From Candidatus Aminicenantota bacterium (GTDB taxonomy: Bacteria > Acidobacteriota > Aminicenantia > UBA2199), in contig CP070627.1 of assembly GCA_020355945.1 (NCBI GenBank), forward strand, positions 8,287,202 through 8,314,347: DNA of 27,146 nt, read 5' to 3'. Every line of letters starts with the position of its first letter. Position 1 is the first letter of the stretch. Under the pieces are notes generated by a model that saw nothing but the letters and a program-made list of their open reading frames with translations, searched no databases and had not been told where the DNA came from. Shown piece after piece: positions 1-23,961 of the stretch. The translations under genes were made by a program, and so were the position numbers.

Positions 1-851
1 ACCCCCCCGCAAAAACTTCTGCCTAACTGCTCCGGGATTCCCAGGGTTTTGTAACGAAACCTGGAATTTTCACGACATAAAGTACGAACAAAACCACTTG
101 ATCCTTCATACTGCGGCTGAGGCTCCTGGCTGAAAATGGGATAGACATACAACAGTCTGACCTTATCCTCCGGTTCCTGCTCCAACAACACCCGGGTTAA
201 ATAAAATAACGAATAAATCCCCAGGTCCAACTGCCGGTTGATGTCTTCCTGCCGCGGAGAAAACCTCTCTTTGCTCCACCAATGAACGATATGACTCGGT
301 ACCAGGGAACGATAACGAAGATTCGCCGCCAGACGGCGGTAATCCTCCAGGTCCCGGGCATTGATTTCATAAATGTTGTTATCGATCTCCCGGTACGCTT
401 CCCCCGGTTTGACCAGGATGAGGTCTCTCTTGCCTAAATACTCCCCCAGTGCATGAAAAAATTCCTCTCCACTGTCCAATATGACCAAAACCTGCGGTTG
501 AGAAATTGTAAACTCTATAGGCTCTATATCACACTCTTGCCAATATTCACGAAAATACATTAACCCGCTTTTTTCAGTCACTTCATCCTGGGAATCCCCC
601 TGTCTCTTGCCCACCTGTCTGATTAATTTCAAACCTTCCTCTAAGTCGATTCGATGCTGTTTAACCATATTCAAAATTTCAATTCGCTGTTTCCTGTCAA
701 CGTTGATTTCACTGCTTGTTTTAATCTCTTCTGCCTCAACGACCTCTGTGACCTCTGTGGCTTCACTTATGTCTGAGACACCTGCAGCTTTTGTGGTATC
801 TTTTATCCAGGCTAACGGGTTATTTCCCAAACGAGATTTCTTTTTTCCCAT
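1..851 (-). CDS. Trans-AT PKS protein 3, N-terminal part (partial)
   Basis: The frame is open for 283 codons and runs off the window, so the C-terminus is missing. Residues 1-16 (MGKKKSRLGNNPLAWI) form a basic peptide. Residues 25-50 are an acidic, low-complexity linker in which a tandem 9-bp repeat (plus strand 741-758) encodes TEVTEV. Residues 53-82 form a helical segment (QRIEILNMVKQHRIDLEEG) like those found between DH and KR in trans-AT PKSs. From about 98 onward the sequence matches the structural half of a PKS ketoreductase: an LMYFREYW entry, VLVILDSGEEF, then GFVRTLCRENSRFRYKTLGI. The catalytic KR half should lie beyond the edge. It probably completes the module whose KS and DH end PKS2. 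The ATG follows the ParA stop by 2 bases, so translation is likely coupled. The PKS assignment rests on pattern recognition of the KR structural subdomain and is fairly secure. The role of the N-terminal peptide is inference. Confidence 0.82.
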   Translation of the reverse strand, partial: MGKKKSRLGNNPLAWIKDTTKAAGVSDISEATEVTEVVEAEEIKTSSEINVDRKQRIEILNMVKQHRIDLEEGLKLIRQVGKRQGDSQDEVTEKSGLMYFREYWQECDIEPIEFTISQPQVLVILDSGEEFFHALGEYLGKRDLILVKPGEAYREIDNNIYEINARDLEDYRRLAANLRYRSLVPSHIVHWWSKERFSPRQEDINRQLDLGIYSLFYLTRVLLEQEPEDKVRLLYVYPIFSQEPQPQYEGSSGFVRTLCRENSRFRYKTLGIPEQLGRSFCGG

Positions 852-853
852 GA

Positions 854-1615
854 TTAGACAACCTCCCGTCGGATGATCTCCTGGCAGAGTTCGGAATAAT
901 CTTGTGCTCCAACACTGTCAGGTTTGTATTGGTAAATATCCTGGCCGAAACCAGGGGCTTCAGCCAGGGAAACATTCTTTCGTATAAAAGTTTTAAACAC
1001 TTTCTCTTTAAAATGCCCCCGGATGGTTTCCATCACTTCCCGGTCCAGGTTTTGCCGGGAGTCATACATGGTAACAATTACACCACTGATTTCCAGGTCT
1101 CTATTTAAACGCTTCTTTACGATATCAATGGTTGACAACAGCATCTTAACCCCCTCCAGGGGCAGGTATTCGGATTGGATGGGAATAAATAGCTGCTGGG
1201 CGGCTGTCATCGCATTTAACGTCAGTAAGCCTAACGAGGGTGGACAATCGATTAAAATACAATCAAACCGCCCCGCCACCCCGGACAATGCCTCTCTTAA
1301 CAGCAGCTCTCTACCGGGAATAGTGGACAGTTCGATATCGGTCCCGGAAAGATCAATGGATGACGGAATCACATGGACACCGTTATGAAAAATAGCTGCC
1401 TCATCAACCCCTGCTTCCCCTTTTAACAGATCATATACCGTACATTTAAAAGACTGACTTTTCAAGCCAATAGAAGAGGTTAAGCTGGCTTGCGGGTCCA
1501 GGTCCACCAACAGGACATTTTTCCCGTGGAATTTCAGACCCACTCCCAGGTTCACTGCCGTGGTGGTCTTACCCACTCCTCCTTTCTGATTCGCTATACA
1601 AATGATTTTTCCCAT
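854..1615 (-). CDS. parA: ParA/Soj-type partitioning ATPase inside the PKS operon
   Basis: The 253-aa protein has the ParA/MinD deviant Walker A box KGGVGKTT at residues 11-18, with signature Lys11 and Lys16. It also has the A' motif LVDLDPQAS near 37-45, Walker B-like LIDCPPSLG near 121-129, and a Soj-like C-terminal block (FIRKNVSLAEAPGFGQDI). Its length is that of short Soj-type ParA, with no N-terminal HTH. Proteins of this family dimerise with ATP, bind DNA non-specifically and move plasmids, chromosomes or protein cargos when a partner triggers hydrolysis. The start has AGGGAG 8 nt upstream. No parB gene and no recognisable parS palindrome were seen in the window. The gene sits between two PKS genes that share one split module and is 2 bp from PKS3, so its cargo may be the synthase and not DNA. 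Calling it a ParA-family ATPase is secure; its role here is inference. Confidence 0.95.
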   Translation of the reverse strand: MGKIICIANQKGGVGKTTTAVNLGVGLKFHGKNVLLVDLDPQASLTSSIGLKSQSFKCTVYDLLKGEAGVDEAAIFHNGVHVIPSSIDLSGTDIELSTIPGRELLLREALSGVAGRFDCILIDCPPSLGLLTLNAMTAAQQLFIPIQSEYLPLEGVKMLLSTIDIVKKRLNRDLEISGVIVTMYDSRQNLDREVMETIRGHFKEKVFKTFIRKNVSLAEAPGFGQDIYQYKPDSVGAQDYSELCQEIIRREVV

Positions 1616-1679: not shown

Positions 1680-1735
1680 ATTAACAATTAACAATTAACA
1701 TTTAACATTTAACAATTGACAATTGACAATTAAAA
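1680..1735. repeat. Heptameric AT-rich tandem repeat upstream of parA
   Basis: Eight consecutive 7-bp units are present: attaaca three times, tttaaca twice, attgaca twice, then a degenerate attaaaa. They fill much of the 148-bp spacer between the PKS2 stop and the parA start, so any internal promoter or leader for parA would include them. No clear promoter or hairpin terminator is seen here. A shorter array of similar heptamers lies at 18818-18845. Confidence 0.9.
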
Positions 1736-1763
1736 ATTTGCATTATACATATTCCCTCATTCA

Positions 1764-4700
1764 TCACGACAATAAGACTTCATCCAGCATTTGATCCGCT
1801 TGATGAACTTCCAATTCCCCGGCTTTTAATTGCTTTAATATTTCCAGTATTTCCCGGCTTTCCCTTCTCTTGATATCTTTAGCAGCACCATCTTTATTTC
1901 CTGGTTCCTCCCTGACCGGGTTTACTGATGCGGATTCTTGAGAGATAGTCATGGATTCTAATTTTCTTATGGAAAAGTTCCTGATTTTTACCAGTACCTG
2001 TCCCTGTTGATCCACCAGTTGGATATCGAAGGTTTTTTCCCTGGTGCCAGGAGGGCGATTACCAGCCAGCACAGCATAGGCGTAACCATTTTCAGTGAGA
2101 GGGTTGATGATTTCCACTTCTTCCACTGCAAAGGGGACATAAGGGATATCCACAGGTGGTGCGGCACTGTGGTCCAGTCCCACCACGGTTTGCAAAGCAG
2201 CATCAATGACCGAGGGATGCAGATCAAACTCCTGGAATCCTTCCCGGTACTCAAGGGGCAGTTCCAGCATGGATAAGGCTTCGCTGCCCTTTCTATGGGG
2301 GTACAACCATTTGATCAAACGAAAGGAGGGACCATATTGGAACCCGGCTTGCCGGGTCCTTTGATAGCACAGCGCACCCTCGATTCCAGGGGAACAGCGC
2401 TGCTTGATGGCACCAATATCCAGCCTTTGATTCCTGTTTTCCTTTAATATTGTTACTGTTTCCCGTTGATGATCATAGACCAACTGCCCCTGGGCATGGA
2501 CCATACGCCTTTCCCGGTTGTTGGCACTATTCACGGCAAAACCTGCGCTCCCCTCATGGGAGGTGGGATAAAGGGTGATGTATACTTCACGGCTGTGCTC
2601 TTCCCTTTCCATGGTGATAGGGCTTGTCCAGACCATATTCTTGATTTTTACTACTTTTGCTTTGCGATAGGCCAGGTTTCCCGCGGCCCTGGCCATTTCC
2701 AGGTAGGCGGCGGCCGGGAACACCATCTTACCCTGCACCACGTGGTCCTTCATGTAAAAATCTTCCCTGGTAAGTACTTTTTTAAAACACTGCTCCTCCA
2801 GCGTGGATTCATTGGTATCAAGCAGCGGGTGCAAACCATTAATTGAAGTCGCCGCCCCTGTGGATTTCATAGTCTTACCGCTGATACTACCCTGGTCTTC
2901 CGGTACCCAGCAGCGCTGCCGGGCAAACGGATAGCCGGGCAGGGAAATCCGTTGACAACAGTCTCCCCGGTACAACTCTCGCCATTCCAGCTCATACCCC
3001 TTCACATACAAATCCGCTAATGCCAGTAGTTTATCTTTGTATTGATTTGCGGTAAGCCGCTGCTCCCGGTATCCCTGTAATTCCTTGATTAAACCTTCTC
3101 CCAACTGTACCAGGGCTGGTTCCGGTTTGAACTGTGACTTTTTTATGTGGTGAAACAAATAATTGTCTATCTCTTTTCCCTCCAGGACTTGCCGGAGATT
3201 TTTCTTCAAATCGCTGGTATCATCAATATTTTCCACTAGCAAACAGGAACGCAGGGAAAAGTGAGACCTTCCCTTCAGCAGGGTATAGGAAATATCCTTT
3301 AATTGCTGGTTTTTTCCTTTATTTTCCAGCCAATGAATCATATCCGTTAATTTTTGGTTTAGAGCGGTTGAGGTTTTAGCGGAGATGGGGATCAAGTAGT
3401 AAGGAGGAGTTTTGGCAGGCTGTTCAACAGGCAAGGGGGCCTCTCTGACCACCACATGGGCATTGGTGCCGCTGAAGCCAAAGGAGCTGACTGCCGCTGT
3501 CCTGGGTTTGCCCTCCACGGGCTGCCACTCCTTCAGTTGGGTGTTGACATAGAAGGGGCTGTCTTTGAAATTGATGAATTCATTTTCCTTTTCAAAATTT
3601 AATGAAGGGACAAGCTTTTTGTGGTAGAGGCACAATAGAACTTTGATCAGCCCGGTAACACCAGCCGCGGCCAATGTATGGCCAATGTTGGTTTTTACCG
3701 AACCAATGGCGCAGTATTGCTTTTTTGAGGTATATTTTTTGAAAGCATCAGTGAGTGCATCCACTTCAATGGGGTCGCCCAACCGGGTGCCGGTACCGTG
3801 AGCTTCAACATAGGTGATAATTCTCGGATCGATGTGATATCGGTCATAAATTTCACATTCCAGGGCGGTTTGGGAGGGGCCACTGGGGGCGGTGATACCA
3901 TTACTTCTACCATCGTAATTGATCCCTGATCCCAGGATGACGCCGTATATATGGTCCCCATCTTCCCGGGCTTTTCCCAGTGGTTTCAACACCACTGCAG
4001 CGGCTCCTTCTCCGGGCACAAAACCATCCGCACGGTTATCAAAGGTCTTGCATAGACCATCTGCTGCCAGCATATCGGTACGACTGGCATGAATATAAAA
4101 CCCGGGTTTTGTCATTACCATGACACCGCCGGCAATGACCATGTCACTGGTACGGCTGCGAATACTTTCACAGCCCAGGTGCACCGCTGTCAATGAAGAA
4201 GAACACGCCGTATTAATGGTCAATACCGGCCCCCGCAGGTTTAAATGATAGGAAATCCGCGCCGATAACATGGCTTCAAAATTCCCTGTCATGGTATAAG
4301 CATCCGGTAATACTCCATTTTCCTCGATCAACTCCCGGTAATCCGCCAAATTAAACCCTCCAAATACCCCACATTTTTTCTCTTCTAGTTCCCGGTCCGA
4401 ATACCCGGCATCTTCCAATGCTTTCCACGCTTCCTCTAAAAAAAGTCGATGCTGGGGGTCCATCAATTCCGCTTCTTTAGGAGAAATATTAAAAAATAAG
4501 GGATCAAACCCATCAATATCTGTGAGAAAACCTCCCCATTTGCAGTAACTTTTACTGGCTGCCTGGGGATCAGGATCATAAAAATCCTCTATATTCCAGC
4601 GGGTGATTTCTTTAACGGAATTTCTCCCGTTGGCCAAATTATCCCAGAATTCATGGATATTATTGGCATCCGGGAGCCGCGCCGACATTCCAATAACAGC

Positions 4701-7700
4701 AATGATTTCCCGGTCATCTCTTCCTGGGGATTTCCTACTGTCATGCTTTTCCTCCTGCGTCAATGGGTTATCCGGGTCAACAGGCGCTAACACGGATAGA
4801 GAAATGGAATCGCCGAATTGCTCAAAAATATGACGGGTTAATTTCTCTATGGAGGAATAATTGAACAGGTCTGTGGACCTTAAATTGATTCCCAATGCCT
4901 GGTTGATTTCCTTGACGATCCCAATGGCCAGGATCGAATCCACACCAAAATCCGAATAGGACTTTTTGAGGTCCAGGTCGCACTTTTCTATTTCCAGGAC
5001 TGCAGTCAGGCATTCACCAATGGTTTTCTCTATAAACTCGCGTTTATCCTGGACCCGGATATTTGGAACTTTGATGACTTGCTGCCGGGGGAGGCACTGG
5101 GATTTGGGTTTTGACAGGCTGTCCACACTCAAGGTTTCTGCCCATCTTTTTCTCACCAGGCCATTACTTTGGCCGATCACGATAAGATGATGGGGAATGG
5201 TATTGCTCATTACCATTTCCTGGCCCGGGAACACCACTCGGTCAAAACCTTCATCCTTTAAAAGTCTTTCCCACATTCCCGTGTTGAGAAGGGGGCTGCC
5301 TGATAAGCGGTTCTCTTCATCCTCAAACAACCACCACCCCCCCAACAATCCAAAAGTAAGGGTGACATAGTCCTGGATATTGACCCCTTCATTCAAAATC
5401 AGCCAGCCGTTGGTTTTTAACAGGGCTTTGGTATTGCGCAGGCTTTTGGCAATATCCCGGGTGGCGTGCAGCACATTGGCGGCAATGACCACGTCCACAT
5501 TGCCATTTTCATAGCCCTGTTGGCCGATGTCCTCTTCGATATTGAGAATGCGAAACTCCACCATGGGATACTTTTTACCGAAATGTTCCTTCCCGTGTTT
5601 GGTAAACCTGGAGGAAATATCGGTATAAATATAATGCAGCCCTTCGGCATGGGGGTGAAGAGCTTCCAGTACAGGGGCTGTAGTACCCCCGGTTCCTGCG
5701 CCTATTTCCAATATCTTGATCTTCTCACCCGGCTCCAAAAGGGGCAGCCGAGCCTGGACATACGCCCGGACACTTTGAACCACCAGGTCATTTGCGTAGT
5801 CGGAAATTTGATTGCCTTTGTAGATGCCTTCCACCAATTCCATGCCGGAACCAGGGAACATCACATCTGTGGCCGGAATTTCCCCCCTAAGGATGCGGGG
5901 ATAGTTATTTAAACAGGTCCATACCAGGCGGATATGGGCGGTGATATCCGGGAATGCCTTTAAAAGTCTGTCTTTTTGCTTTTCCAGGTGTTTTGCCCGG
6001 GACCCGGGATCATCTTTGTCAATAACCCCGGGGGTAACTACTTCCAGGCTGCTGTCCCCATCTATCCCCGGTCGAAGGAACCCGGCTCTTACCAATATGT
6101 TCAATAACTCATTAAATAAACGAGTATAAGACGAAATAATGCCCAAAGACTGCTGCAGTGCCTCTCTCTGATAACGTTCTCCTTTCCGCTGCAATACCCC
6201 CATTTGTTGAAAGATGGAAAATAACAATTCCTGACCCCACCGGTCCAGTTGACCATAGGCCTTTTCCAGTCGATGCCGCTGCCCGGGGTCCAGTGAAAGC
6301 GGTTGGACCTGTGATAACACAGGATCAAAATTCCATGGGCAAGTTCCGTCGCCAGGGTAAATTTCCAGTCGATGGTCACGCTGTATACCCAATTTATCCA
6401 GGAAGCTGTCTTCGGCTTTCAACGACACCACCTGGGTTACCCGGTGGGCCATGATGCGCTGCACCGCTTCCATGCCTTCCTCGGGTTCGATGGACCTGAT
6501 ACCCTGCCCGGCCAAACGTCTCTTGTACGCTTCAGAGGCCACAATTCCCACACTACCCCAATACCCCCAGTTAATAATCTTTACCGGATAGGGGGCAACC
6601 TGGCTGAGATGAAGTGCAAAGGCATCTTTAAAGGTACAACCGGCCGCATAATTACTCTGCCCGGTATTGCATGTAATGGATTGGGCCGAAGAGAAAAACA
6701 TCATAAAATCAAGGGGGCTTTCTTTAAACACCTTATACAGTATCACACTGCCCTTAACTTTTGGGTGCAAAGCAGCCCCCAGGGTTTCTTCGTCCATATT
6801 TTGCACCGTCCTATCCCTTAAAACAATGGCAGAATGAATCACACCGTGGATAGTTCCAAAATGGGACTCCGCGGTTTTTACAGCGGTCTTCATACTGCTG
6901 AAATTTGCCGCATCTGCCTGGATATACAAAACCTCTCCGCCGCTGGATTCAATCTGCGCCATTTTCTCTTCCTGGTAAGGTTCTAACTGGCTTCGGGCCC
7001 TTCGACCCACCAGCACCAACCTCGCCTGCACTGTCCTGGCCAGGTGAAAACCCAATTCCAGCCCGATTCCACCTGCTCCACCCAGGATAAAATAAACACC
7101 CCGGTGTTTAAATGAAGTATGGGGCAGAGAGAATGACGGTAAGGAGGGCAGTCGCAGGGACTCTATGATGGGAATATAACATCTGCCTCCCCGCAGGGCA
7201 ATTTCCCCGGGAATATCTCCGCCATTGCCAGCAACCATATGAACCACGGCGTCCAATGAATCCCAATCCATATCAATACATCGAACCTTTAACCGGGGAT
7301 ATTCTTTGCCCATGGTCTTGCCTAATCCATATAAACTGGCTGCAAAAGGATTGGTTAGGTCCCCGCGCCATACCTGCCGGGCATGATTGGTGATAATATT
7401 CACCTGTAAAGAAGATTGAAGAAACCCGGCCTGGTCCAGGGCTTTGAAGAGGCGAAACAAGGAAAACACACCGCGCTGCTGGGACTCCTCCAGGGCATCC
7501 GGGTCATGGATTTCCACAACCTCCGGCTGAATTCCTCCCATAAAATAGACCACCTCCAGGTGCCGCAGCCGGAACCGGCTGATGGCTCGTTCCACTGCCT
7601 GATCATCAGATATGCTGATTTCCCATACGCCCGGCGAATGCTGACGGGTTTGGCCGCCCAATTGGATTTCAAATACCCGGTCACCCGAATGGCGGGCAGC

Positions 7701-9866
7701 CAGGACTTCTTTTATATTGGAACTCCCGGGGGCATAGACAAAAAGAACCTGCCTTTTCCCGGTTGAAACTGCCTGGCGTGAATCATCCCGGGTATGGGCT
7801 GCCGGGGCTTTCACCGCGGGAGGAAGCAGCCTCCACCCAGGCATATAGAAGAAATCCTGCAGCGGGTCCTGCACCTCTTCCTTTTGTTTATTCTCTTCGC
7901 CTGCAGCCGCGGCAGCCACCCGGGCAGGACCAGGCATAGGACAGCGCCAATACCGCTTCCGGGCAAAAGGATAAGTGGGCAAAGAAATCAACTGCGGCCC
8001 GGTTCCGGGGTTCCCATAAAGGGATGACCAATCAACATTCTCACCGGAGACCCACAGTTGGGCCAACCGGTCCAGGCTCTCCTCGGGTCCTGCTTTTACC
8101 TGGTTCTTATCCCCGGTTTCATCCGCAGCAATATGCCCCCGGTAAAACCCCCTGATGCCGGTCTGCCCCTGGAGAAATTGCCGGAACCTGTCTTTTAAAG
8201 CAGGGACACTTGAAACCTTCACTGCCAATCTCTCTTCCATGGCTTCCCGTCCCATTTGCAAGGTGTAAGCAATGTCTGCCAGGGAGAGAGAGTCGCCTAT
8301 TTTTTCAAGGAAATTTACCATTTTGCCGGCATAGGCCCTTAACCGATCTTCATTTTTGGCAGAAAGGAGTATGAGTTCTTTTTGCCTCCGGCGGCCAGGG
8401 TGTGAGAGCACTGAGCATGGTGCATGGCGCACAGCTTTTGGGGCAAAGCACTTTGCCATTTTAGGGTCCCCTCGCCGAGGGGCCCCTGGACCCCCGCAAA
8501 ACTTTTTATTAAATGCTTCATACTCCTCTAATACTACGTGGACATTGGCACCGCCAGCACCAAAAGAGCTGATACCGGCCCGCCGCGGATATTCGACATG
8601 TTTCCCGTTCTCAACAATCACCATCTTTTTCCAGGGAACCAACTCCTGCTGAACATAAAAAGGCGAATCTTCAAAATCGATTTTGGGATTCAACGGTTCA
8701 CAATGCAGCGTAGGAACCAATTGCCTATGCTTCAACTGCAGCAGGACTTTGGTCACGGCAGCAATGCCAGCGGCAGATTCCAGGTGACCGATGTTAGACT
8801 TGGATGAGCCGATGGAACAATACTGCTTATCCTGGGTATACCTCCTGAACACCTGGGTCAATCCGGCGATCTCTATGGGGTCCCCCAGTGAAGTCCCGGT
8901 ACCGTGAGCTTCCACATAACCGATGGTCCTGGGGTTGATTTTGGCTTTATCCAGGGCGGAAGAAATCACAGCAGACTGGGCATTGGGATTGGGTACGGTA
9001 AACCCGCTGGTCTTTCCCCCGGCATTGATGGCAGAACCTTTGATAACTGCATAAATAATATCACCATCGGCAGCAGCGCGGTCCAGCGGTTTTAACAGCA
9101 CCGCCCCTACCCCCTCACCATCCACAAATCCATCCGCTCCGGCACCAAAGGCTTTACACCGGTTATCAGCGGTAATCATATCTATACTGCATAACCTCTG
9201 GTATTGCACCGGAGAAAGAATCAGGTTAACACCACCGGCAAGAGCCAATTCACACTCCTCCCGCTTCAAACTCTCACACGCCAGGTGAATGGCGGTAAGC
9301 GAAGACGAACAAGCCGTATCCACCGCCATACTGGGCCCCTGGAAATTAAAAAAATAAGACACCCGGTTGGCAATCGACCAGTAAGCACAATGCGCACCGG
9401 TATCATACCCCCTGGCATGAGCATACCCACTGAGCCATTCATAACCGCCGTTCATCATCCCGGCAAAAACACCCACCCGGTGGTCCGCACTCGCAAACCT
9501 TTTTTGAGTATATCCCGCATCTTCAAATACTTCCCAGGCTATCTCCAAAAATAGCCGCTCCTGGGGGTCCATGCCCTCAGCCTCCCGCGGCGAAATATGA
9601 AAAAACAACGGATCAAACAAATCTACACCAGTAATAAATCCACCATAGCGACTGTAACATTTATCCCGATATTCCCGCCAGTCCCAGCGGTCCCCGGGTA
9701 TTTCACCGATACAATTTCTGCCTTCTTTTAAATTATCCCAATACTCCGCCAACGTCTCCGAACCAGGATACCGACCACTAATACCTATAATAGCTATATC
9801 TTTTCCAGGTTCATCCTTTTGAAGATTTTCCAAAAGCTGGACCAACCGTTCCCGTTTTTTATCCAT
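1764..9866 (-). CDS. Trans-AT PKS protein 2: KS-KR-cMT-ACP-KS-DH
   Basis: The protein has 2700 residues and no AT domain. KS-a (about 22-445) has Cys186 in DTACSSS, His321 in EAHGTGT and His361 in NIGH, so it looks active. The post-KS linker (496-640) keeps LPTYPFARKRYW. The KR spans about 670-1165, with NADPH motif GGAGGIG (929-935) and Tyr1073 in QSNYAAGC. The C-methyltransferase spans about 1195-1565, with SAM motif LEIGAGTGG (1386-1394). The ACP is at about 1605-1685, with phosphopantetheine Ser1644 in GVDS. KS-b (about 1720-2142) has Cys1888, His2023 and His2063. The DH (about 2344-2635) has H2375xxxGxxxxP and D2555xxxQ2559, so it also looks active. The protein ends with a helical tail (EILEILKQLKAGELEVHQA) that may dock onto PKS3. 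The first module should give an alpha-methyl beta-hydroxy unit. The second is split, with its KR on PKS3. The start has GGAGG 8 nt upstream. An odd in-frame insert lies at residues 452-494. Confidence 0.95.
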   Translation of the reverse strand: MDKKRERLVQLLENLQKDEPGKDIAIIGISGRYPGSETLAEYWDNLKEGRNCIGEIPGDRWDWREYRDKCYSRYGGFITGVDLFDPLFFHISPREAEGMDPQERLFLEIAWEVFEDAGYTQKRFASADHRVGVFAGMMNGGYEWLSGYAHARGYDTGAHCAYWSIANRVSYFFNFQGPSMAVDTACSSSLTAIHLACESLKREECELALAGGVNLILSPVQYQRLCSIDMITADNRCKAFGAGADGFVDGEGVGAVLLKPLDRAAADGDIIYAVIKGSAINAGGKTSGFTVPNPNAQSAVISSALDKAKINPRTIGYVEAHGTGTSLGDPIEIAGLTQVFRRYTQDKQYCSIGSSKSNIGHLESAAGIAAVTKVLLQLKHRQLVPTLHCEPLNPKIDFEDSPFYVQQELVPWKKMVIVENGKHVEYPRRAGISSFGAGGANVHVVLEEYEAFNKKFCGGPGAPRRGDPKMAKCFAPKAVRHAPCSVLSHPGRRRQKELILLSAKNEDRLRAYAGKMVNFLEKIGDSLSLADIAYTLQMGREAMEERLAVKVSSVPALKDRFRQFLQGQTGIRGFYRGHIAADETGDKNQVKAGPEESLDRLAQLWVSGENVDWSSLYGNPGTGPQLISLPTYPFARKRYWRCPMPGPARVAAAAAGEENKQKEEVQDPLQDFFYMPGWRLLPPAVKAPAAHTRDDSRQAVSTGKRQVLFVYAPGSSNIKEVLAARHSGDRVFEIQLGGQTRQHSPGVWEISISDDQAVERAISRFRLRHLEVVYFMGGIQPEVVEIHDPDALEESQQRGVFSLFRLFKALDQAGFLQSSLQVNIITNHARQVWRGDLTNPFAASLYGLGKTMGKEYPRLKVRCIDMDWDSLDAVVHMVAGNGGDIPGEIALRGGRCYIPIIESLRLPSLPSFSLPHTSFKHRGVYFILGGAGGIGLELGFHLARTVQARLVLVGRRARSQLEPYQEEKMAQIESSGGEVLYIQADAANFSSMKTAVKTAESHFGTIHGVIHSAIVLRDRTVQNMDEETLGAALHPKVKGSVILYKVFKESPLDFMMFFSSAQSITCNTGQSNYAAGCTFKDAFALHLSQVAPYPVKIINWGYWGSVGIVASEAYKRRLAGQGIRSIEPEEGMEAVQRIMAHRVTQVVSLKAEDSFLDKLGIQRDHRLEIYPGDGTCPWNFDPVLSQVQPLSLDPGQRHRLEKAYGQLDRWGQELLFSIFQQMGVLQRKGERYQREALQQSLGIISSYTRLFNELLNILVRAGFLRPGIDGDSSLEVVTPGVIDKDDPGSRAKHLEKQKDRLLKAFPDITAHIRLVWTCLNNYPRILRGEIPATDVMFPGSGMELVEGIYKGNQISDYANDLVVQSVRAYVQARLPLLEPGEKIKILEIGAGTGGTTAPVLEALHPHAEGLHYIYTDISSRFTKHGKEHFGKKYPMVEFRILNIEEDIGQQGYENGNVDVVIAANVLHATRDIAKSLRNTKALLKTNGWLILNEGVNIQDYVTLTFGLLGGWWLFEDEENRLSGSPLLNTGMWERLLKDEGFDRVVFPGQEMVMSNTIPHHLIVIGQSNGLVRKRWAETLSVDSLSKPKSQCLPRQQVIKVPNIRVQDKREFIEKTIGECLTAVLEIEKCDLDLKKSYSDFGVDSILAIGIVKEINQALGINLRSTDLFNYSSIEKLTRHIFEQFGDSISLSVLAPVDPDNPLTQEEKHDSRKSPGRDDREIIAVIGMSARLPDANNIHEFWDNLANGRNSVKEITRWNIEDFYDPDPQAASKSYCKWGGFLTDIDGFDPLFFNISPKEAELMDPQHRLFLEEAWKALEDAGYSDRELEEKKCGVFGGFNLADYRELIEENGVLPDAYTMTGNFEAMLSARISYHLNLRGPVLTINTACSSSLTAVHLGCESIRSRTSDMVIAGGVMVMTKPGFYIHASRTDMLAADGLCKTFDNRADGFVPGEGAAAVVLKPLGKAREDGDHIYGVILGSGINYDGRSNGITAPSGPSQTALECEIYDRYHIDPRIITYVEAHGTGTRLGDPIEVDALTDAFKKYTSKKQYCAIGSVKTNIGHTLAAAGVTGLIKVLLCLYHKKLVPSLNFEKENEFINFKDSPFYVNTQLKEWQPVEGKPRTAAVSSFGFSGTNAHVVVREAPLPVEQPAKTPPYYLIPISAKTSTALNQKLTDMIHWLENKGKNQQLKDISYTLLKGRSHFSLRSCLLVENIDDTSDLKKNLRQVLEGKEIDNYLFHHIKKSQFKPEPALVQLGEGLIKELQGYREQRLTANQYKDKLLALADLYVKGYELEWRELYRGDCCQRISLPGYPFARQRCWVPEDQGSISGKTMKSTGAATSINGLHPLLDTNESTLEEQCFKKVLTREDFYMKDHVVQGKMVFPAAAYLEMARAAGNLAYRKAKVVKIKNMVWTSPITMEREEHSREVYITLYPTSHEGSAGFAVNSANNRERRMVHAQGQLVYDHQRETVTILKENRNQRLDIGAIKQRCSPGIEGALCYQRTRQAGFQYGPSFRLIKWLYPHRKGSEALSMLELPLEYREGFQEFDLHPSVIDAALQTVVGLDHSAAPPVDIPYVPFAVEEVEIINPLTENGYAYAVLAGNRPPGTREKTFDIQLVDQQGQVLVKIRNFSIRKLESMTISQESASVNPVREEPGNKDGAAKDIKRRESREILEILKQLKAGELEVHQADQMLDEVLLS
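8385..8510. repeat. Palindrome-rich repeat-like insert within PKS2
   Basis: The stretch encodes an unusual Cys/Pro/Arg-rich peptide (residues 452-494, including APRRGDPKMAKCFAPKAVRH and HAPCSVLSHPGRR) between the end of KS-a and the usual post-KS linker. The DNA holds a perfect inverted repeat, ggcaaag-ca-ctttgcc (8442-8457), and a second one, cccctc-gcc-gagggg (468-473 with 477-482, adding 8000), flanked by gggtcc and ggaccc. The equivalent point in PKS1 has only a short ordinary linker. The base pattern resembles a small dispersed palindromic element that inserted in frame. No other copy was found in this window. Confidence 0.6.
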
Positions 9867-9949: not shown

Positions 9950-12900
9950 TTATTGGTTTGACAACAATTGCAGCAGTTCATCCACTTCACTGTCGGATAA
10001 TTGCAATACCCTGTCTCTTAAACTCCCATTCTTCTTAACTGGAAATGGGTCCAATGGTGTTTCCATCACTTCTTTATCGGTTTTAGGTGTTTGTACCATA
10101 TGATGGGGCTGGGGTGGAAAACCTCCTGGCGGTTCCCGGTGGTTAAAAAGCTCGGCTGCCCGCTGACCATGCCGGGACAGGAAATAATCGGTTAATTCCC
10201 CCAGGGTCATATTCTCAAATAACAAAGTGGCTGGCAATTTGCCAAAATCCTTTTCAAGACGGTGAATAATATCCATACTTACCAGGGAATCAAGACCATA
10301 CCGCTCAAAGCCGGACGTGCTGTCGAACCGCTGCTTCTGTATTTTGAGTACTTCGGAAAAAACTGTTTTCACATAATCCAGCAAATCTTCCTGCAACTTT
10401 TTTTTTGACACAGGTTCAAAATTAAGCGTTGGTCCTGGCGGCGTTCCAATTTCAAATTCAAGTCCGGGCCCGGGTTCAAGTCCAGGTTTCAGTTCAAGCT
10501 CAGGTGCCGGTTCAAGAGAGGGAACCTGCACATTCCCATCACTTTCCCCAACCATCACACACTGCCCGAATTCCTCCACGGCGGCATCAGGGAATTGAAA
10601 GATATGAACCCACCGGATTCCATTGGTTTCCAACAGTTCTTTCCACTGGTGTGGGCCCAATAAAGGCGAACCCGGGAGGCGAATCTCCTCATCTTCAAAA
10701 CGCCACCACCCCTCGGTTAACCCAAAGGTTAAAAGGGAAAATTCCTCAACGTGGGTAACTTCATTGATCACCAGCAGGCCATTGGTTTTCAGCAGCCTTT
10801 TGGCATGATGCAAGGTTTGAACCATCTGCCGGGTGGCATGCAGCACATTACTGCCCAATACCAGGTCCATACTGCCGGGTTTAAATCCCTGGCGTTCAAT
10901 GGGTCCCTCAATATCTAAGACCCGGAACTCCACAAAAGGATAATCAGCACCAAAAGCGGTCTCACCATATTGGGTAAATCCCTGGGAAATATCCGTATAC
11001 CAATACCGGAGGTGTTTTGCATATTCCCTGACAGCTTTAAACACAAATCGGGAGGTGCTCCCCGTGCCTGCCCCCACCTCGAGGATATGAATTTGCGCTT
11101 CGGGATCGCTTTGCAGCCGCTGCCGGATATATTGCCTGACCACTTGCGCCGCCAGTCGGTGAAAATAATCAGAGAGGGGAGTCCCCTGGTAAACACCTTC
11201 TACCAACGTTTTGGAACCCCCGGGAAACATGACTTCCATGTGACTCTTCCGGCCGGTAAGCACATGGGAGAAATCCTTAAAACAGGCCCACAGTAAACGA
11301 ATATAAGGAATAATTTGCGGGTGCCCGGCCATTAATCTATCTTTCTCTTTCTCCAGGGTGTTCATATTTCCCGGGCCGTGTCCGCCGGGATTATCTGGCA
11401 GCGAAGCAGTGACGATTTCATCACTGCTGCACCGAACCAGGCCGGCATTTTCCAGGATATGCAGTAAAGCGTTATATAACCGGGTATACCTGGGGATGAT
11501 GCCCATGCGCTCCTGCAGCTCATCCTTGCGCCGATGTTCATCTTTCCCCCGGAACACCCCCATTTCCTGGAAAACATGCAGTAACAAGCCCGGGATCCAG
11601 CGGATCATTTCACTGTAACCCTCCCAATATTGATGAACTTCAACCGTGTCGAAGGCGGGCAGGGTAGTAAGGGAGACCATTTTATCCGAAACCGATGGTA
11701 TTTGTTCCGGGTATACTTCCCGGTAATGGCTCATATCAACGCCAATTTTTTCCAGATAAGGGCGAAGAGCTTTCAGGGGAATCACCTGCGTTACCCGGTG
11801 GGCCAGGATGCGCTGCATCGCTTCCATACCTTCTCCCGGTTCGATGGATTCGATACCCTGGGCTTTTAAACGTTTAGCGTAGGCTTCGGAAGCCACAATG
11901 CCTACACTGCCCCAGTATCCCCAGTTGATGATTTTCACGGGATAAGGTTCACACCGGTGGATCAAGAGAGCAAAGGCATCCTTAAAGGTACAGCCGGCAG
12001 CATAGTTACTCTGCCCGGGATTCCCTGCAAACGATTGGGCTGCGGAAAAGAATATCATAAAGTCCAACTGCTCTCCCTTAAACACATGATGCAAAATCGC
12101 ACTGCCCTTGACTTTTGGCTGCAAAGCGGCGCGGAAAGTCTCTTCCTCCATGTTTTGCAGTGTGATATCCCTCAATACAATAGCGGAATGAAATACACCG
12201 TTGATTTTACCAAAATGAGATTTTGCTTTGTGCAGGGCATTCTTCATGCTTTCCAGGTCTGCGGCGTTTGCCCGGATATAAAGCACTTTACCGCCGCAGG
12301 CTTCGATCCGGGAAATTTTCTCTTGCTGTCCGGGTTTCAACTGGCTTCGCCCCACCAATACCAATCTTGCCTGTACTGTCTTTGCCAGGTAATGAGCGGT
12401 TTCCAGCCCGATACCCCCTGCCCCGCCCAGGATAAAGTAAACACCTTGCTGTTTGAAGGGCGGCCGGCTCACACCCGGCAGCAGCAGCGGCTCAATGGTG
12501 CGCACATATCGTTTCCCGTTCCGCAGGGCTGTCTCATTCCCGGCAGGATGGGCAGGCTCATCAAGTATCTGCCGTACCACTTCATCCATTCTCCGGGAAT
12601 TTGTCTTTATCTCTTCCAGGCTGACATCAATGCAGTTGATTTTCCATCCGGGGTATTCTTTAGCCATGGATTTAACCAATCCATGCAAACTTGCCCCATA
12701 AGGCTTTACCGGGGCTCCGGGTGTTACCTGGAGAACATCATTGGTAATTACTTTCAACTGGAGTACCCGTTGGGCAAACCCATGGGCGATCAAAAACTTC
12801 ACCAGCCTGAAGAGGGAAAGTACTCCCCGCTCTTGAGCCTGTTCCCACGCATCGATATCATCCGTATCGATATCCTCCTCCTGTATTCCACCCAGGAAAT

Positions 12901-15900
12901 AAATCATACGAACATCTTGCAGTTGAAGCGCCCGGTTCTCCAGGGTCAGGGAATCCAGGGGATCCAACTCAATCTCGTGAACTTCATCTTTGCCGTGTGC
13001 TTGTGCCAGTGCAGGTTTAAGCACCGATTCCCCGGGAGGATAAAAAATAAGCACCTTTAGTTTCCCCGGGGTGGATGGCCGGCTCTGCGGGGCAGGTAAC
13101 CGGACCGGTTTCCATGTTGGCATATATAAAAAATCCAGGCTGGTTTTTTTAAATGGCCGAAAGGCCACTTGATGAAACTTCAAACACACGGTGCCGTTCT
13201 CATCCGTAATAAAGACATTATACCGGAGGGGGGCGGCGGTAATGGCATAGGCATACCCGCTGGCGGGCAGGGGATGTGACATTTCCACTTTTGCCGCGGC
13301 AAAAGGGACCACCGGGGGTAGATAGTCAGGGTTGTCAGCCGCAAAAATTCCTATAATAGTCTGGAGTGCGCTGTCCATCACTGCCGGGTGCAGGGTGTAC
13401 CCGGACCACTCATGCGCGAACTCGGTGGGTAAACGGAATTTGCTCACCGCTTCATGGGGATTTGACCACACATCAATGACCCCCTGGAAATAAGCCCCGT
13501 ACCTCACCCCCATTTCCGCAGCCCGGCGATAAAGTACGGTTTTATCCATGTGATAAGGACATTTGGCCCGGATTTCTTCAATAGAAATACGCACTTCAGG
13601 CGGTGTGTTCACCATATCCCCGGGCACCAGCAATTGGCCCACCATATGGATAACCTCACGGCCGTCCCCATGACTTTGAACCCGGAACACCAGGTCCTGG
13701 TTATCCTTTTTGATGGTAATCCATAATTCTCTTTCTTCTCCCGGCACTGCCAACGGTTCCCGCCATACCACCCGGGCCAGTTGGCATTGAGTGCCTCCAG
13801 TGATAACAGCCCCAACAACAATTCCCATTTCCAGGTATCCCACACCGGGAAAAATGCATTGACCATGAACCTGGTGGTCCCTGAGAACCGGGTCTGTTTT
13901 TTTTAAGGTCTTCAGGAACACGATGCCCTGTTGTAAACTAAGCTCAGGAGCAACCCGATCAATAAGAAGATGAAGTCGGGGTCCCTCGAACGGTTTTTTA
14001 TACGGGATTTGAGCATTGACCGGGACCCAATAACGCTCATTGACAAAAGGATAAGTGGGCAGCGATATGCGTTGAGGATGACTGCCAGGACCGGCGTGGG
14101 CCAGCTCCCACGGGATGTCCACACCTGAAACCCACAACCGGGCCAATTTGTTTAAATTCCGGTCATCGATAAGGATGCGAATGAATTCCTCGGTCTCCCT
14201 TCCCCCGGATAACAACTGGGAAGTCGTTTTGTGTTCAGCGATATTCTCCCGGTAAACCTCCTTTTCACCGGTCCTGGTTTGCATTTGCTCTTGTTTTTCC
14301 AGGTGTCGGGTTAATTTTTCTTTCATGTCCCGGAGGTTTGATGCCACGATTGCCAACCGTTCCTCCATGGCTTCCCGTCCCACCTGCAGGGTGTAAGCGA
14401 CATCCGGGAAACGGATTGGTGTTTCGGCATGGGTGACGCCTTTGCCGTAGTGGTTTCCCAGGGTACTGGCGTACTGGCTGCCCAGACGCCGGGAAAGCAC
14501 CCGCAGCGACATATTTCCAGGGACCAGGCCCGGGTTGATTTCCAGGTCGTACATCTCATTGAGCCGTTGGATAAAAGCCGCCAGCTTCACCGCATCAAAA
14601 CCGTATTCTTCCAGGCCCTCATCAGGATTAATATCGTTTTCTCCCACATCAATGATTTTTGCGGCTGTCCTTAATAAATCCATTTGCAGGTGATTGAAAA
14701 AATGACTGCCGAATCCGATTGTATACTCCGCCTTTTCCAGGAATTCCTTTATTTTCCCGGCATACACGTTTAACCTCTCTGCACTTTTGGCGGACAGGAG
14801 TATCAATTGGGGTTCCCCCGGGCTGAGGTCCGGGCGTCCTGCGCCCTGTGTATTCGGCCATTCTTCCAACACCACGTGGGCATTGGTGCCGCCAAAACCA
14901 AACGAACTCACCCCTGCCCTCCGGGGGACAATATCCCCGTTCTCCTTTTCAAGTGGTTTCCAGTCCCGGGTTTCTTTGACAAAGAAGAAAGGGGTATTTT
15001 CAATTTTGATAAGAGGGTTGATCTTGTGCAGGTTAAGGGTGGCTGGCAGCTTTTTATATTTCATTGCCAGTACCGTTTTGATCAACCCGGCGATGCCAGC
15101 AGCAGACTCCAGGTGTCCGATATTGGTTTTAACAGAACCTAAACCACAGGAATGTTCCTGGTAAGTTTCTTTATGAAATTTCTCGAATAATTGGGTAAAA
15201 GCGGTCTTCAACCCGTGAATTTCAATGGGGTCACCCAGGGTGGTCCCGGTGCCGTGGGTTTCGATATAACTTATCGTATCAGGGCTTACCCGGGCATCTT
15301 CATAGGCGTTAACCAGCAATCTTGCCTGGGCTTCGGCGCTGGGAACCGTGAGAGCGCTTGCTTTACCGCCATGATTGACAGCAGTTCCCTTAACAATGGC
15401 ATAGATATGGTCCCCTTCTTCAATGGCCTGGCGCAGCGGTTTTAACAGGATAAGGCCTGCACCTTCGCTGCGCACATACCCATCGGCTGCCTCATCAAAG
15501 GTTTTACATTTCCCGTCATTAGATAACATCCCGGCGCTGCTGCAGGCAACAAATAATTTAGGGGTCCAACAGATGTTAGCGCCGCCTGCCAGGGCCAGTT
15601 GGCACTCCTCACCGCGGATGGCGCGAACCGCTTGATGAACGGCCACTAAAGAACTTGAACAAGCCGTGTTAATGGTTATGCTGGTACCATGGAAATTGAA
15701 AAAATACGATATCCGATTGGAAATGATGGAGGAATCCGTACCCGAATTCAGGTAAGGATCGATTTCTGTTAAGTACTGATCGATTAACTCGCGGTAATCA
15801 TTATGGCTGGCTCCGATGAAAACACCTGTCCTGGTCCCGGCCAGGCATGATGCCCGATACCCGGCATCCTCCAACGCATGCCAGGCTAACTCCAACAAAA

Positions 15901-16210
15901 TTCGCTGCTGCGGGTCCATTAAATTCGCTTCCCTGGGCGATATATTAAAAAAAGAGGCATCGAATCCTTCAATATTATCCAGGGTCCCGGCCCACTTCGT
16001 GCTGCTCTTATTGATTTCTTCAGCGGCATTGCCCATATATTGCTGCCAATCCCATCGTTCTACCGGGATCTCTTTAATGAGATCTTTACCTGCGATGAGG
16101 TGCTCCCAGAAGGTTTCCATATCCGGGGAACCGGGAAAACGCAGGCTGATCCCGATAATGGCAGCGTCTTTTTCATTAAATTTACTATAATCCGTTGTCT
16201 TTTGTTCCAT
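9950..16210 (-). CDS. Trans-AT PKS protein 1: KS-(pseudo-ACP)-DH-KR-cMT-ACP
   Basis: From the ATG at 16210 the protein has 2086 residues; GGAGG precedes it by 10 nt. An upstream in-frame TTG at 16240 has no such site and was not used. The KS (about 14-450) has Cys184 in NTACSSS, His319 in ETHGTGT and His366 in NIGH. The post-KS linker contains an ACP-like insert (503-578) whose Ser position is Ala540. The DH (about 745-1020) has H779xxxGxxxxP and D946SALQ950, so it looks active. The KR spans about 1028-1495, with GGAGGIG (1262-1268) and Tyr1403 in QSNYAAGC. The C-methyltransferase spans about 1525-1885, with ILEVGAGTGS. A Pro/Glu/Leu-rich linker (1898-1932) precedes the ACP (about 1938-2015), which carries Ser1975 in GLDS. 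A short tail (SDSEVDELLQLL) may dock onto PKS2. There is no AT, so malonyl must be loaded in trans. The expected product is an alpha-methyl enoyl chain, open to trans enoyl reduction. As the first module after the free ACP, it probably takes the starter. Confidence 0.95.
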   Translation of the reverse strand: MEQKTTDYSKFNEKDAAIIGISLRFPGSPDMETFWEHLIAGKDLIKEIPVERWDWQQYMGNAAEEINKSSTKWAGTLDNIEGFDASFFNISPREANLMDPQQRILLELAWHALEDAGYRASCLAGTRTGVFIGASHNDYRELIDQYLTEIDPYLNSGTDSSIISNRISYFFNFHGTSITINTACSSSLVAVHQAVRAIRGEECQLALAGGANICWTPKLFVACSSAGMLSNDGKCKTFDEAADGYVRSEGAGLILLKPLRQAIEEGDHIYAIVKGTAVNHGGKASALTVPSAEAQARLLVNAYEDARVSPDTISYIETHGTGTTLGDPIEIHGLKTAFTQLFEKFHKETYQEHSCGLGSVKTNIGHLESAAGIAGLIKTVLAMKYKKLPATLNLHKINPLIKIENTPFFFVKETRDWKPLEKENGDIVPRRAGVSSFGFGGTNAHVVLEEWPNTQGAGRPDLSPGEPQLILLSAKSAERLNVYAGKIKEFLEKAEYTIGFGSHFFNHLQMDLLRTAAKIIDVGENDINPDEGLEEYGFDAVKLAAFIQRLNEMYDLEINPGLVPGNMSLRVLSRRLGSQYASTLGNHYGKGVTHAETPIRFPDVAYTLQVGREAMEERLAIVASNLRDMKEKLTRHLEKQEQMQTRTGEKEVYRENIAEHKTTSQLLSGGRETEEFIRILIDDRNLNKLARLWVSGVDIPWELAHAGPGSHPQRISLPTYPFVNERYWVPVNAQIPYKKPFEGPRLHLLIDRVAPELSLQQGIVFLKTLKKTDPVLRDHQVHGQCIFPGVGYLEMGIVVGAVITGGTQCQLARVVWREPLAVPGEERELWITIKKDNQDLVFRVQSHGDGREVIHMVGQLLVPGDMVNTPPEVRISIEEIRAKCPYHMDKTVLYRRAAEMGVRYGAYFQGVIDVWSNPHEAVSKFRLPTEFAHEWSGYTLHPAVMDSALQTIIGIFAADNPDYLPPVVPFAAAKVEMSHPLPASGYAYAITAAPLRYNVFITDENGTVCLKFHQVAFRPFKKTSLDFLYMPTWKPVRLPAPQSRPSTPGKLKVLIFYPPGESVLKPALAQAHGKDEVHEIELDPLDSLTLENRALQLQDVRMIYFLGGIQEEDIDTDDIDAWEQAQERGVLSLFRLVKFLIAHGFAQRVLQLKVITNDVLQVTPGAPVKPYGASLHGLVKSMAKEYPGWKINCIDVSLEEIKTNSRRMDEVVRQILDEPAHPAGNETALRNGKRYVRTIEPLLLPGVSRPPFKQQGVYFILGGAGGIGLETAHYLAKTVQARLVLVGRSQLKPGQQEKISRIEACGGKVLYIRANAADLESMKNALHKAKSHFGKINGVFHSAIVLRDITLQNMEEETFRAALQPKVKGSAILHHVFKGEQLDFMIFFSAAQSFAGNPGQSNYAAGCTFKDAFALLIHRCEPYPVKIINWGYWGSVGIVASEAYAKRLKAQGIESIEPGEGMEAMQRILAHRVTQVIPLKALRPYLEKIGVDMSHYREVYPEQIPSVSDKMVSLTTLPAFDTVEVHQYWEGYSEMIRWIPGLLLHVFQEMGVFRGKDEHRRKDELQERMGIIPRYTRLYNALLHILENAGLVRCSSDEIVTASLPDNPGGHGPGNMNTLEKEKDRLMAGHPQIIPYIRLLWACFKDFSHVLTGRKSHMEVMFPGGSKTLVEGVYQGTPLSDYFHRLAAQVVRQYIRQRLQSDPEAQIHILEVGAGTGSTSRFVFKAVREYAKHLRYWYTDISQGFTQYGETAFGADYPFVEFRVLDIEGPIERQGFKPGSMDLVLGSNVLHATRQMVQTLHHAKRLLKTNGLLVINEVTHVEEFSLLTFGLTEGWWRFEDEEIRLPGSPLLGPHQWKELLETNGIRWVHIFQFPDAAVEEFGQCVMVGESDGNVQVPSLEPAPELELKPGLEPGPGLEFEIGTPPGPTLNFEPVSKKKLQEDLLDYVKTVFSEVLKIQKQRFDSTSGFERYGLDSLVSMDIIHRLEKDFGKLPATLLFENMTLGELTDYFLSRHGQRAAELFNHREPPGGFPPQPHHMVQTPKTDKEVMETPLDPFPVKKNGSLRDRVLQLSDSEVDELLQLLSNQ
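10415..10519 (-). repeat. Pro/Glu/Leu-rich linker repeat before the PKS1 ACP
   Basis: The DNA encodes repeated units such as LEPAPELE and LEPGPGLEFE (PKS1 residues 1898-1932) between the methyltransferase and the ACP. The imperfect DNA repeats of the ggttcaag type suggest slippage growth. It is likely a flexible tether giving the ACP reach to the preceding domains. Confidence 0.65.
14477..14704 (-). other. Degenerate acyl-carrier-protein domain inserted in the PKS1 post-KS linker
   Basis: Residues 503-578 of PKS1 have an ACP-like pattern: a first helix (LLRTAAKII), an acidic loop (DVGENDINPDEGLEEYG), the site GFDAVKLAAFI where GFDSxxL is expected, then NEMYDLEINPG and a final helix. The Ser codon is replaced by GCG (Ala540, positions 14591-14593), so a phosphopantetheine arm cannot be attached there. 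The insert interrupts the linker between VYAGKIKEFLEKAEY and FPDVAYTLQVGREAMEERLA, parts that are contiguous in PKS2. It is probably a structural or docking relic and not a working carrier. Confidence 0.75.
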
Positions 16211-16278
16211 TAGACGAATCCTCCACCCCGGGCAGCACAAGGGATGGCTGGCGCTAATGTCGTTTCCTGGTCAACATA

Positions 16279-23500: not shown

Positions 23501-23917
23501 CATACCTCCTTCACCCTGCTGGCAGTGGGTTTCAATGATTTCCGCCTGTTTAACCACCATTTCCACTGCCTCTTCTATTGTCATGACCCCTGAAAGTGCG
23601 GCAGCGGCAAACTCCCCTAAACTACTCCCCATCACGATACCCGGTTCCGGGCCACTTCCTGTTAAGGCCCGGGACAACGCATATTCCACCATAAAAATGG
23701 CCGGATGCGTGTACCGTATACAATCAAAAATATCACTGGTCTTTCTTTTATCATCATATAATTGGTGCAGTATTGATTCTCCTGTCATATCAACGATGAT
23801 GTGGTCCAATTGCTCCATCCACTTCCTGAAATCCGGATGCCTATGATAAAGCTCTTCTCCCATATGATAATATTGGCTCCCCTGACCGGGAAACATAAAT
23901 ACAATCGGTTTACCCAT
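20585..23917 (-). CDS. Trans-acting acyl hydrolase - acyltransferase - enoyl reductase
   Basis: Numbers count from a GTG at 23929; the ATG at 23917 (residue 5) is used as start, and GTG at 23923 or 23929 is also possible. Domain 1 (about 8-325) has FPGQGSQ, Ser103 in GSSLGE and His207 in FAFHS, matching the proofreading acyl hydrolase branch of AT-like proteins. Domain 2 (about 337-625) has FPGQGSQ, Ser422 in [11 protein letters not shown] and His527 in GAFH, the usual form of the free malonyl acyltransferase. A Lys-rich linker (634-657) leads to domain 3 (about 685-1110), a PfaD/PksE-type FMN enoyl reductase with GFFGTGGLE and [20 protein letters not shown]. Together they would load malonyl onto the AT-less modules, clear stalled chains and reduce selected enoyl intermediates. 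Fusions with this order are known in trans-AT clusters. The gene lies 46 nt after the AraC-type gene, probably in the same transcript. Confidence 0.94.
22919..22936 (-). promoter_or_regulatory. Internal ribosome site at the acyl hydrolase/acyltransferase junction
   Basis: Minus-strand AAGGAGG (22930-22936) is followed by 8 nt and an in-frame ATG (22919-22921). That Met begins [12 protein letters not shown], exactly where a free-standing malonyl acyltransferase would start. It looks like a retained start from before the two genes were fused, and may still give a shorter acyltransferase-enoyl reductase product. Confidence 0.6.
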
Positions 23918-23961
23918 TATCACCGCCACTTGCTCCTATGACTGACTGAGCCGCCAGCCGG

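Follow-up and report, generated by a model that had tools for sequence, protein, structure and literature searches.

The PksX megacomplex of Bacillus subtilis, the trans-AT PKS/NRPS system for bacillaene, is reportedly gathered into one large assembly, and no ParA is known to serve it. The positioning of other cargos by ParA/MinD (A/D) systems is known, including McdA/McdB for carboxysomes, ParC/PpfA for chemotaxis arrays and FlhG, and the partners of these ATPases are described as having charged N-termini and as possibly belonging physically to the cargo; the main text of the same paper contains neither "polyketide" nor "megasynth" (PMC10241942). In chromosomal ParABS (Soj/Spo0J) systems a ParB gene adjoins parA, and a motif at the ParB N-terminus, made up of aliphatic and positively charged residues, is described as sufficient to stimulate ParA (PMC12462528). 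Open-licence PMC literature on ParA and PKS yielded nothing similar to a ParA tied to a PKS; the ParA named in PMC9867215 is a plasmid ParA.

The locus described here resembles the ParA/MinD positioning systems in combining a ParA-type ATPase with a partner that bears a charged N-terminal tail (PMC10241942), and differs from them in its putative cargo, a polyketide assembly line, and in having the tail fused to a catalytic subunit of the PKS. We consider it probable that a trans-AT PKS has incorporated a ParA together with the tail by which the partner would bind it, with the synthase replacing ParB and, by analogy, being positioned as cargo. Such positioning being known in itself, the comparison suggests that a biosynthetic megasynthase as its cargo would be new.

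The PKS locus and its parA gene

The window, that is the whole stretch of 27,146 nucleotides analysed, encodes on its minus strand, in this order, PKS1, PKS2, parA and PKS3 (ORF list). The features referred to below are the following.

9950..16240, minus strand: PKS1, KS-DH-KR-MT-ACP-ACP (Pfam domains)
1764..9866, minus strand: PKS2, upstream half of the split module, KS-KR-MT-ACP-KS-DH (Pfam domains)
1680..1738, no strand: ATTAACA heptamer array, 8.4 copies, 90% matches, AT-rich, directly upstream of parA (TRF)
854..1615, minus strand: Soj-type ParA ATPase, 253 aa, without adjacent ParB (intact ORF; Pfam and PDB matches)
862..867, minus strand: GGGAGG inside the last parA codons, putative ribosome-binding site for PKS3 (read directly)
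3..851, minus strand: N-terminal 283 aa of PKS3, the ORF running off the window end (ORF list)
792..851, minus strand: N-terminal tail MGKKKSRLGNNPLAWIKDTT of PKS3, residues 1-20, candidate ParA-docking/activating peptide (matches the tails of other PKSs and of non-PKS partners)
804..833, minus strand: core motif of the tail, RLGNNPLAWI (regex R[LM]G.[DN]P[FL]; alignment)
600..686, minus strand: weak SHOCT-like stretch of PKS3, residues 56-84 (PF22746, 3e-05, below the Pfam cut-off)
30..488, minus strand: KR structural half of PKS3 (Beta-ketacyl_N), residues 122-274 (PF21394, 1.2e-44)
20585..23929, minus strand: stand-alone acyltransferases and PfaD-type enoyl reductase, trans-AT component (FabD and PfaD models; Acyl_transf_1 in two stretches)

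PKS2 ends at its C-terminus in a DH (PKS_DH_N, PS-DH; Pfam), and PKS3 comprises within the window the tail, the weak SHOCT-like stretch and, after about 100 residues, the KR structural half, so parA lies inside a split module. The NCBIfam KR-start domain scored 31.8 on PKS3, just below its cut-off of 35, and the KR catalytic half falls outside the window. The protein-database entry for PKS3 (P0121) has 284 aa, one residue beyond the window end, and the source record may end thereabouts. Pfam matched no acyltransferase domain in PKS1 or PKS2, and together with the stand-alone acyltransferase/enoyl-reductase protein this identifies the cluster as a trans-AT PKS, with AT-less modules and a stand-alone AT, as PksX is.

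The parA ORF is intact, from an ATG start at 1615 to a TAA stop at 856-854, confirming an earlier note on this DNA that had placed a complete Soj-type ParA gene between the DH end of PKS2 and PKS3, 2 bp before the start of the latter at 851. The protein matches AAA_31 in Pfam (8.4e-58), and its nearest solved structure is 8ray, "ParA family protein" (5.1e-69), followed by the Soj-type structures 1wcv, 2bek and 6iub. An alignment of 25 sequences showed no variation in the deviant Walker A motif NQKGGVGKTT and none or almost none in LIDCPP; the protein has the KGGxGKT motif with its signature lysine, the Walker B motif and the full-length structure match of ParA/Soj deviant Walker ATPases. Among the main genes of the window no ParB was detected with Pfam or NCBIfam, and the gene after parA is PKS3 where chromosomal ParABS systems have ParB. 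A search of the window for parS, using the B. subtilis-type consensus, gave no match with up to three mismatches; sites of another sequence, or elsewhere in the genome, may exist. The absence of parB and of a visible parS asserted in the earlier note holds to this extent.

PKS-linked ParAs and their phylogeny

Relatives of the window ParA were found at 35 loci in one genome-contig scan. The closest by far, with 59% identity compared with 51% for the next, comes from Paenibacillus harenae (L001) and is also located inside a PKS: an upstream ORF ending in a KS flank is followed by parA and, 2 nt on as in the window, by a 1914-aa PKS that starts with MSKQPRLGSNPLAWLTSTT and continues into a KS linker. 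In G1442, a genome matching Brevibacillus dissolubilis (L119/L120), a PKS ending in a KS flank, parA and a 2357-aa PKS follow one another, the last overlapping parA by 4 nt and starting with MTKKNNRLGNNPLSWIRQTT; contig C1 of this genome encodes the same protein start as the B. dissolubilis ParA P0029. Recurrence in P. harenae and in the Brevibacillus-matching genome indicates that the gene pair is more than chance. The check proposed in the earlier note, a search of trans-AT PKS clusters for parA at the same place, thus came out in its favour as to the inside of split modules (L001, L119/L120); the split point differs, being DH|KR in the window and KS|linker in the clusters of P. harenae and G1442. 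A fourth tailed PKS, P0125, which starts with MSKQPRLGNNPLAWL, is known as a protein only (2/10 candidates).

No ParB-type motif was found in L001, and neither a ParB nor an Arc/RHH-like protein was seen near the other two PKS-linked parAs when ORFs of at least 60 or at least 100 aa were inspected by eye, nor by Pfam among the main genes of the window; the RHH-type partner of a type Ib-like partition pair was thus not seen beside them. P. harenae has a separate Soj-ParB pair elsewhere in its genome (L079).

ParAs of this PKS-linked kind are rare. ParA model A1 at 1e-99 matched three loci in 398 genomes of the class (P. harenae L001, G1442 and G1559), at 1e-97 one of the 392 genomes of the order, and at 1e-93 38 of 398 genomes of the phylum, among which G001 and G677 stand out. 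Of 28 further loci from the phylum (L046-L073), 22 gave a ParA row, all of the ParB type, and six gave none. Model A2 at 1e-80 gave seven matches in 5 of the 15 entries searched: a tailed system (G811:C10), four ParB-linked loci (L003, L014, L016 and L022), L020 with neither mark, and G816:C87. Plasmid ParAs reached 52.6% at best among the 5000 records listed, below the PKS clade.

Two trees were computed. The first, of 119 ParAs, used 58 of 120 P proteins and left out 12 ParA rows (L020, which has no label, and 11 rows that were near-duplicates or came from the same genus). It set apart at 100/100 a group in which 44 rows are ParB-linked and one has no label; the remaining rows fell into a clade of 32 that unites the window ParA, L001 and P0029 (support 100/96) and a clade of 42 that contains the tailed non-PKS systems (96/88). 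All three members of the 32-row clade with readable surroundings lie in split PKS modules, the other 29 being rows without read surroundings. In the second tree, of 65 rows, which left out L096, L005, L095 and L097 together with the majority of the ParB and P rows and in which L094 was labelled as tailed by eye, the PKS-type clade of 26 forms one side of a branch with support 100/96.8, and Soj again splits off at 100/100. Resolution is lower among the other tailed systems, and the ParA of G1559 lies outside the clade. The ParA of L110, which has an internal stop, is absent from both trees. The PKS-linked ParAs thus form a clade apart from ParB-linked Soj, a point that the earlier note had proposed to test, and the window ParA does not group with ParB-linked Soj; it is 43-51% identical to the ParB-linked loci of the genome-contig scan. 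The ParA of L044 (NZ_CP054613.1), a 2.7-Mb Paenibacillus cellulosilyticus record labelled plasmid, has a ParB-type neighbour and groups with Paenibacillus Soj.

A shared N-terminal tail after parA

PKS3 opens with a basic/hydrophobic tail, MGKKKSRLGNNPLAWIKDTT, which the earlier account did not mention. The parA-then-tailed-PKS pairs of P. harenae and G1442 carry the tails MSKQPRLGSNPLAWL and MTKKNNRLGNNPLSWI, respectively, and the PKSs share the consensus M..K..RLG.NPL.W[IL]; the parts downstream of it differ, being the KR half in the window PKS3 and a KS linker in the other tailed PKSs. In the three KS-linker-type proteins 64, 131 and 177 residues precede the first linker motif, and to judge from these sequences the tail is a conserved end carried by a tether of differing length. 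A protein search with PKS3 residues 1-110 retrieved PKS3 itself alone among 51 candidates of 0.55-1.75 times the query length, and in 51 genomes from the genus to which G001 belongs the pattern YTNGGNNNNAAYCCNYTNGCNTGG matched twice, once at the tail of the P. harenae PKS and once in L043, in a frame that is unrelated.

The N-terminus of Soj-linked ParB (e.g. MSKRLGRGLDALIP) is spaced similarly to RLGNNPLAWI, with LGNNPLAWI in the PKS tail corresponding to LGRGLDALI in ParB, and a lysine and an arginine precede the PKS motif. Unlike in Soj/Spo0J systems, PLxWI replaces GLxALI, and the window ParA belongs to a separate clade and has neither an adjacent ParB nor a parS match in the window. At the motif level, PKS3 has a charged N-terminal tail of the ParA-binding kind that an adjacent partner or cargo carries in ParA/MinD positioning systems.

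Fifteen non-PKS relatives were fetched (5/297 and 4/199 genomes from two phyla, and 6/54 from one family), and in 12 of them the gene after parA starts with the same tail, joined to different bodies. The partners of G677 and G811 carry MTQKKRMGKDPFEQLEWIQDS and SRMGRNPLSWIQDT, the latter amid mobile-element-type genes (by eye); in G994, KKRLGSDPF stands ahead of a PAS domain; KPRMGSDPFQKKNPLGWI and three similar starts occur in G1254, G1236, G1227 and G1120; and KR-[LM]-G-x-DPF starts occur in five more (G1343, G1346, G1341, G1345 and G1334). The three without a regular tail are G890, which has none, G979, whose contig stops after parA, and G1023 (L094), with a variant recognized by eye, LLADTTLSWIKDTT. 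In G1559 the tail MSDKRLGRDPLDWIGKST stands on an Arc-like partner surrounded by phage-type genes (by eye). Five small partners were compared with domain databases: one matched Arc-like repressors in PHROG (7.4e-05), Pfam, NCBIfam and the PDB gave nothing firm apart from one very weak PDB match, and the best-shared PHROG, 31248 (3/5), is an entry without a function. From the PHROG matches of this one member, the very weak PDB match and their appearance, these proteins can tentatively be called RHH-like.

Several partners have distinctive bodies. In the small partners of L074, L112, L114, L115 and L116 the C-terminus is formed by a WFPW-like aromatic segment (e.g. NPWMIWFPWAIFKK), in some after a coiled-coil-like stretch, and the segment is possibly a membrane or partner anchor for a ParA cargo. 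At L096:4643-5794 an orphan ParA is followed by a protein that has a PAS domain and the tail MSAKKRLGSDPF, a possible signalling-protein cargo. L094:5118-5801, likewise after an orphan ParA, encodes a membrane-type protein (by eye) with the variant tail MAKKILLADTTLSWIKDTT. L121 combines a ParA with an Arc-like tailed partner amid phage-type genes and may be a phage-plasmid partition system.

The regex R[LM]G.[DN]P[FL], picked after the tails had been seen, matched 30 times in all frames of 831,005 residues, corresponding to 15 distinct genes when doubly fetched loci are merged. A ParA Walker A motif lies within 1.5 kb upstream of 29 of the 30 matches; the one match that lacks a neighbouring ParA is a second tail ORF in L110 (1-243, minus strand), the ParA of the other copy having the internal stop. 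Thirty duplicate or short loci were dropped before the ParA rows of the fetched loci were typed. Among 73 ParA rows, in which some loci were fetched twice, a tail gene is next in 13, a ParB-type motif is present in 55, both occur in none and neither in five. Since the regex had been chosen with the tails in view, a control profile was built from the 12 non-PKS tails alone. On it the PKS3 tail scored 17.4 bits, a non-PKS tail outside the profile (L118, G1559) 16.0, and the tails of P. harenae, P0125 and G1442 12.8, 13.2 and 12.7, compared with 11.8 for the best tail-less ORF among 1105 (duplicates included). In 200,000 shuffles of the first ~50 residues the score was reached 0 times for PKS3, 33 times for L001 and 27 times for P0125. 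The window tail therefore stands clear of the background, and the other PKS tails lie only just above it. The pairing of ParA and tail is, at the level of sequence, well supported.

Possible function and origin of the ParA-PKS pair

Because the same tail precedes different bodies after the parA of 12 of the 15 non-PKS relatives, it is very likely the docking/activating peptide of this ParA branch, fused here to a PKS. PKS subunits are homodimers, so the tails would come in pairs. Given these paired tails, the fit of the PKS tail and the published work on the N-termini of ParB and other partners, we propose nucleoid tethering and tail-triggered hydrolysis. ParA-ATP dimers would bind the nucleoid non-specifically and tether the megacomplex, whose PKS3 tails, two per PKS homodimer and many per megacomplex, would bind the ParA dimers. 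Tail binding would trigger ATP hydrolysis, the complex would follow the ParA gradient, and the megacomplex would be moved, spaced, kept over nucleoids and shared between them. To this reading the sequences themselves contribute a gene pair that recurs, a tail that is conserved and also stands on unrelated partners of related ParAs, and a ParA clade of its own; binding, ATPase activation, positioning and inheritance we infer by analogy. The proposal of the earlier note that this ATPase positions or segregates the PKS megacomplex is in this sense partly supported. The PKS is most likely, on the same analogy, a ParA cargo spread over the nucleoid.

An unlikely alternative is that ParA and the tail do interact but the ATPase governs assembly, clustering or turnover of the megacomplex, as an ATP-driven switch, instead of its place on the nucleoid. 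The pairing would equally support any ATP-dependent interaction; however, the protein matches Soj-type structures, which are those of DNA-binding proteins, over its full length, and some related ParAs pair with Arc-like, DNA-binding-type partners (one member). Distinctly less probable is that the halves of the split module are joined by the tail acting as a docking element of the usual PKS kind, with ParA as a hitchhiker. N-terminal docking elements are frequent on trans-AT subunits and the tail is located exactly at a subunit junction, yet the same tail stands before different domains, at different split points, and on non-PKS proteins adjoining related ParAs. Least probable is DNA partition, in which the cluster would lie on a mobile element, ParA would serve a distant DNA-binding partner and the heptamer array would be the centromere: related ParAs do occur amid mobile-element-type genes (L093 and L121, by eye) and the repeats do lie upstream of parA, but such a partner was not seen around the PKS-linked parAs within the searches given above, the other PKS-parA junctions (53 nt in L001; genes meeting or overlapping in L120) have little or no room for a similar array, and the contigs are long (1,126,016 and 904,467 bases), a second replicon still being compatible with this. 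The array itself might represent a former centromere or a microsatellite lying between the genes.

We return to the ParA-positioned synthase to consider its origin. The PKS-linked systems share with the Arc/RHH-like partition pairs of L093 and L121 the same wider ParA group, similar tails (RMGRNPLSWI and RLGRDPLDWI) and the order parA-partner, and differ from them in lacking a DNA-binding-type domain and in having the tail joined to the PKS. Grouping with plasmid partition systems, which the earlier note had named as evidence against its proposal, is half borne out: non-PKS relatives include partition-like pairs on apparent mobile elements (G811 and G1559, by eye), whereas the tail sits on an Arc/RHH-like protein there and on the PKS in the PKS clusters. 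Because the ParA-tail pair also occurs with Arc-like partners on mobile-element-type loci and the modules are split at DH|KR in one case and at KS|linker in the others, we favour the view that a partition cassette was captured and then entered PKS genes, possibly on more than one occasion; a single insertion that was rearranged later is the less favoured alternative. We lean slightly towards the fuller view that trans-AT PKS modules took up, possibly repeatedly, a partition cassette of parA and its partner's ParA-binding tail out of a mobile-element-type system, making a self-segregating cargo, and that tailed partners with other bodies mark further ParA cargos.

Few bacterial enzymes are as large as the megasynthases that make polyketides and peptides, and the control of their location and inheritance is poorly understood. 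A ParA motor with its docking tail on the synthase would give a direct mechanism for megasynthase placement and inheritance, and the tail motif makes it possible to look by sequence for what orphan ParAs carry. If this is true, the tailed coiled-coil-like, membrane-type and PAS partners would reveal more ParA cargos, readable from the tail alone.
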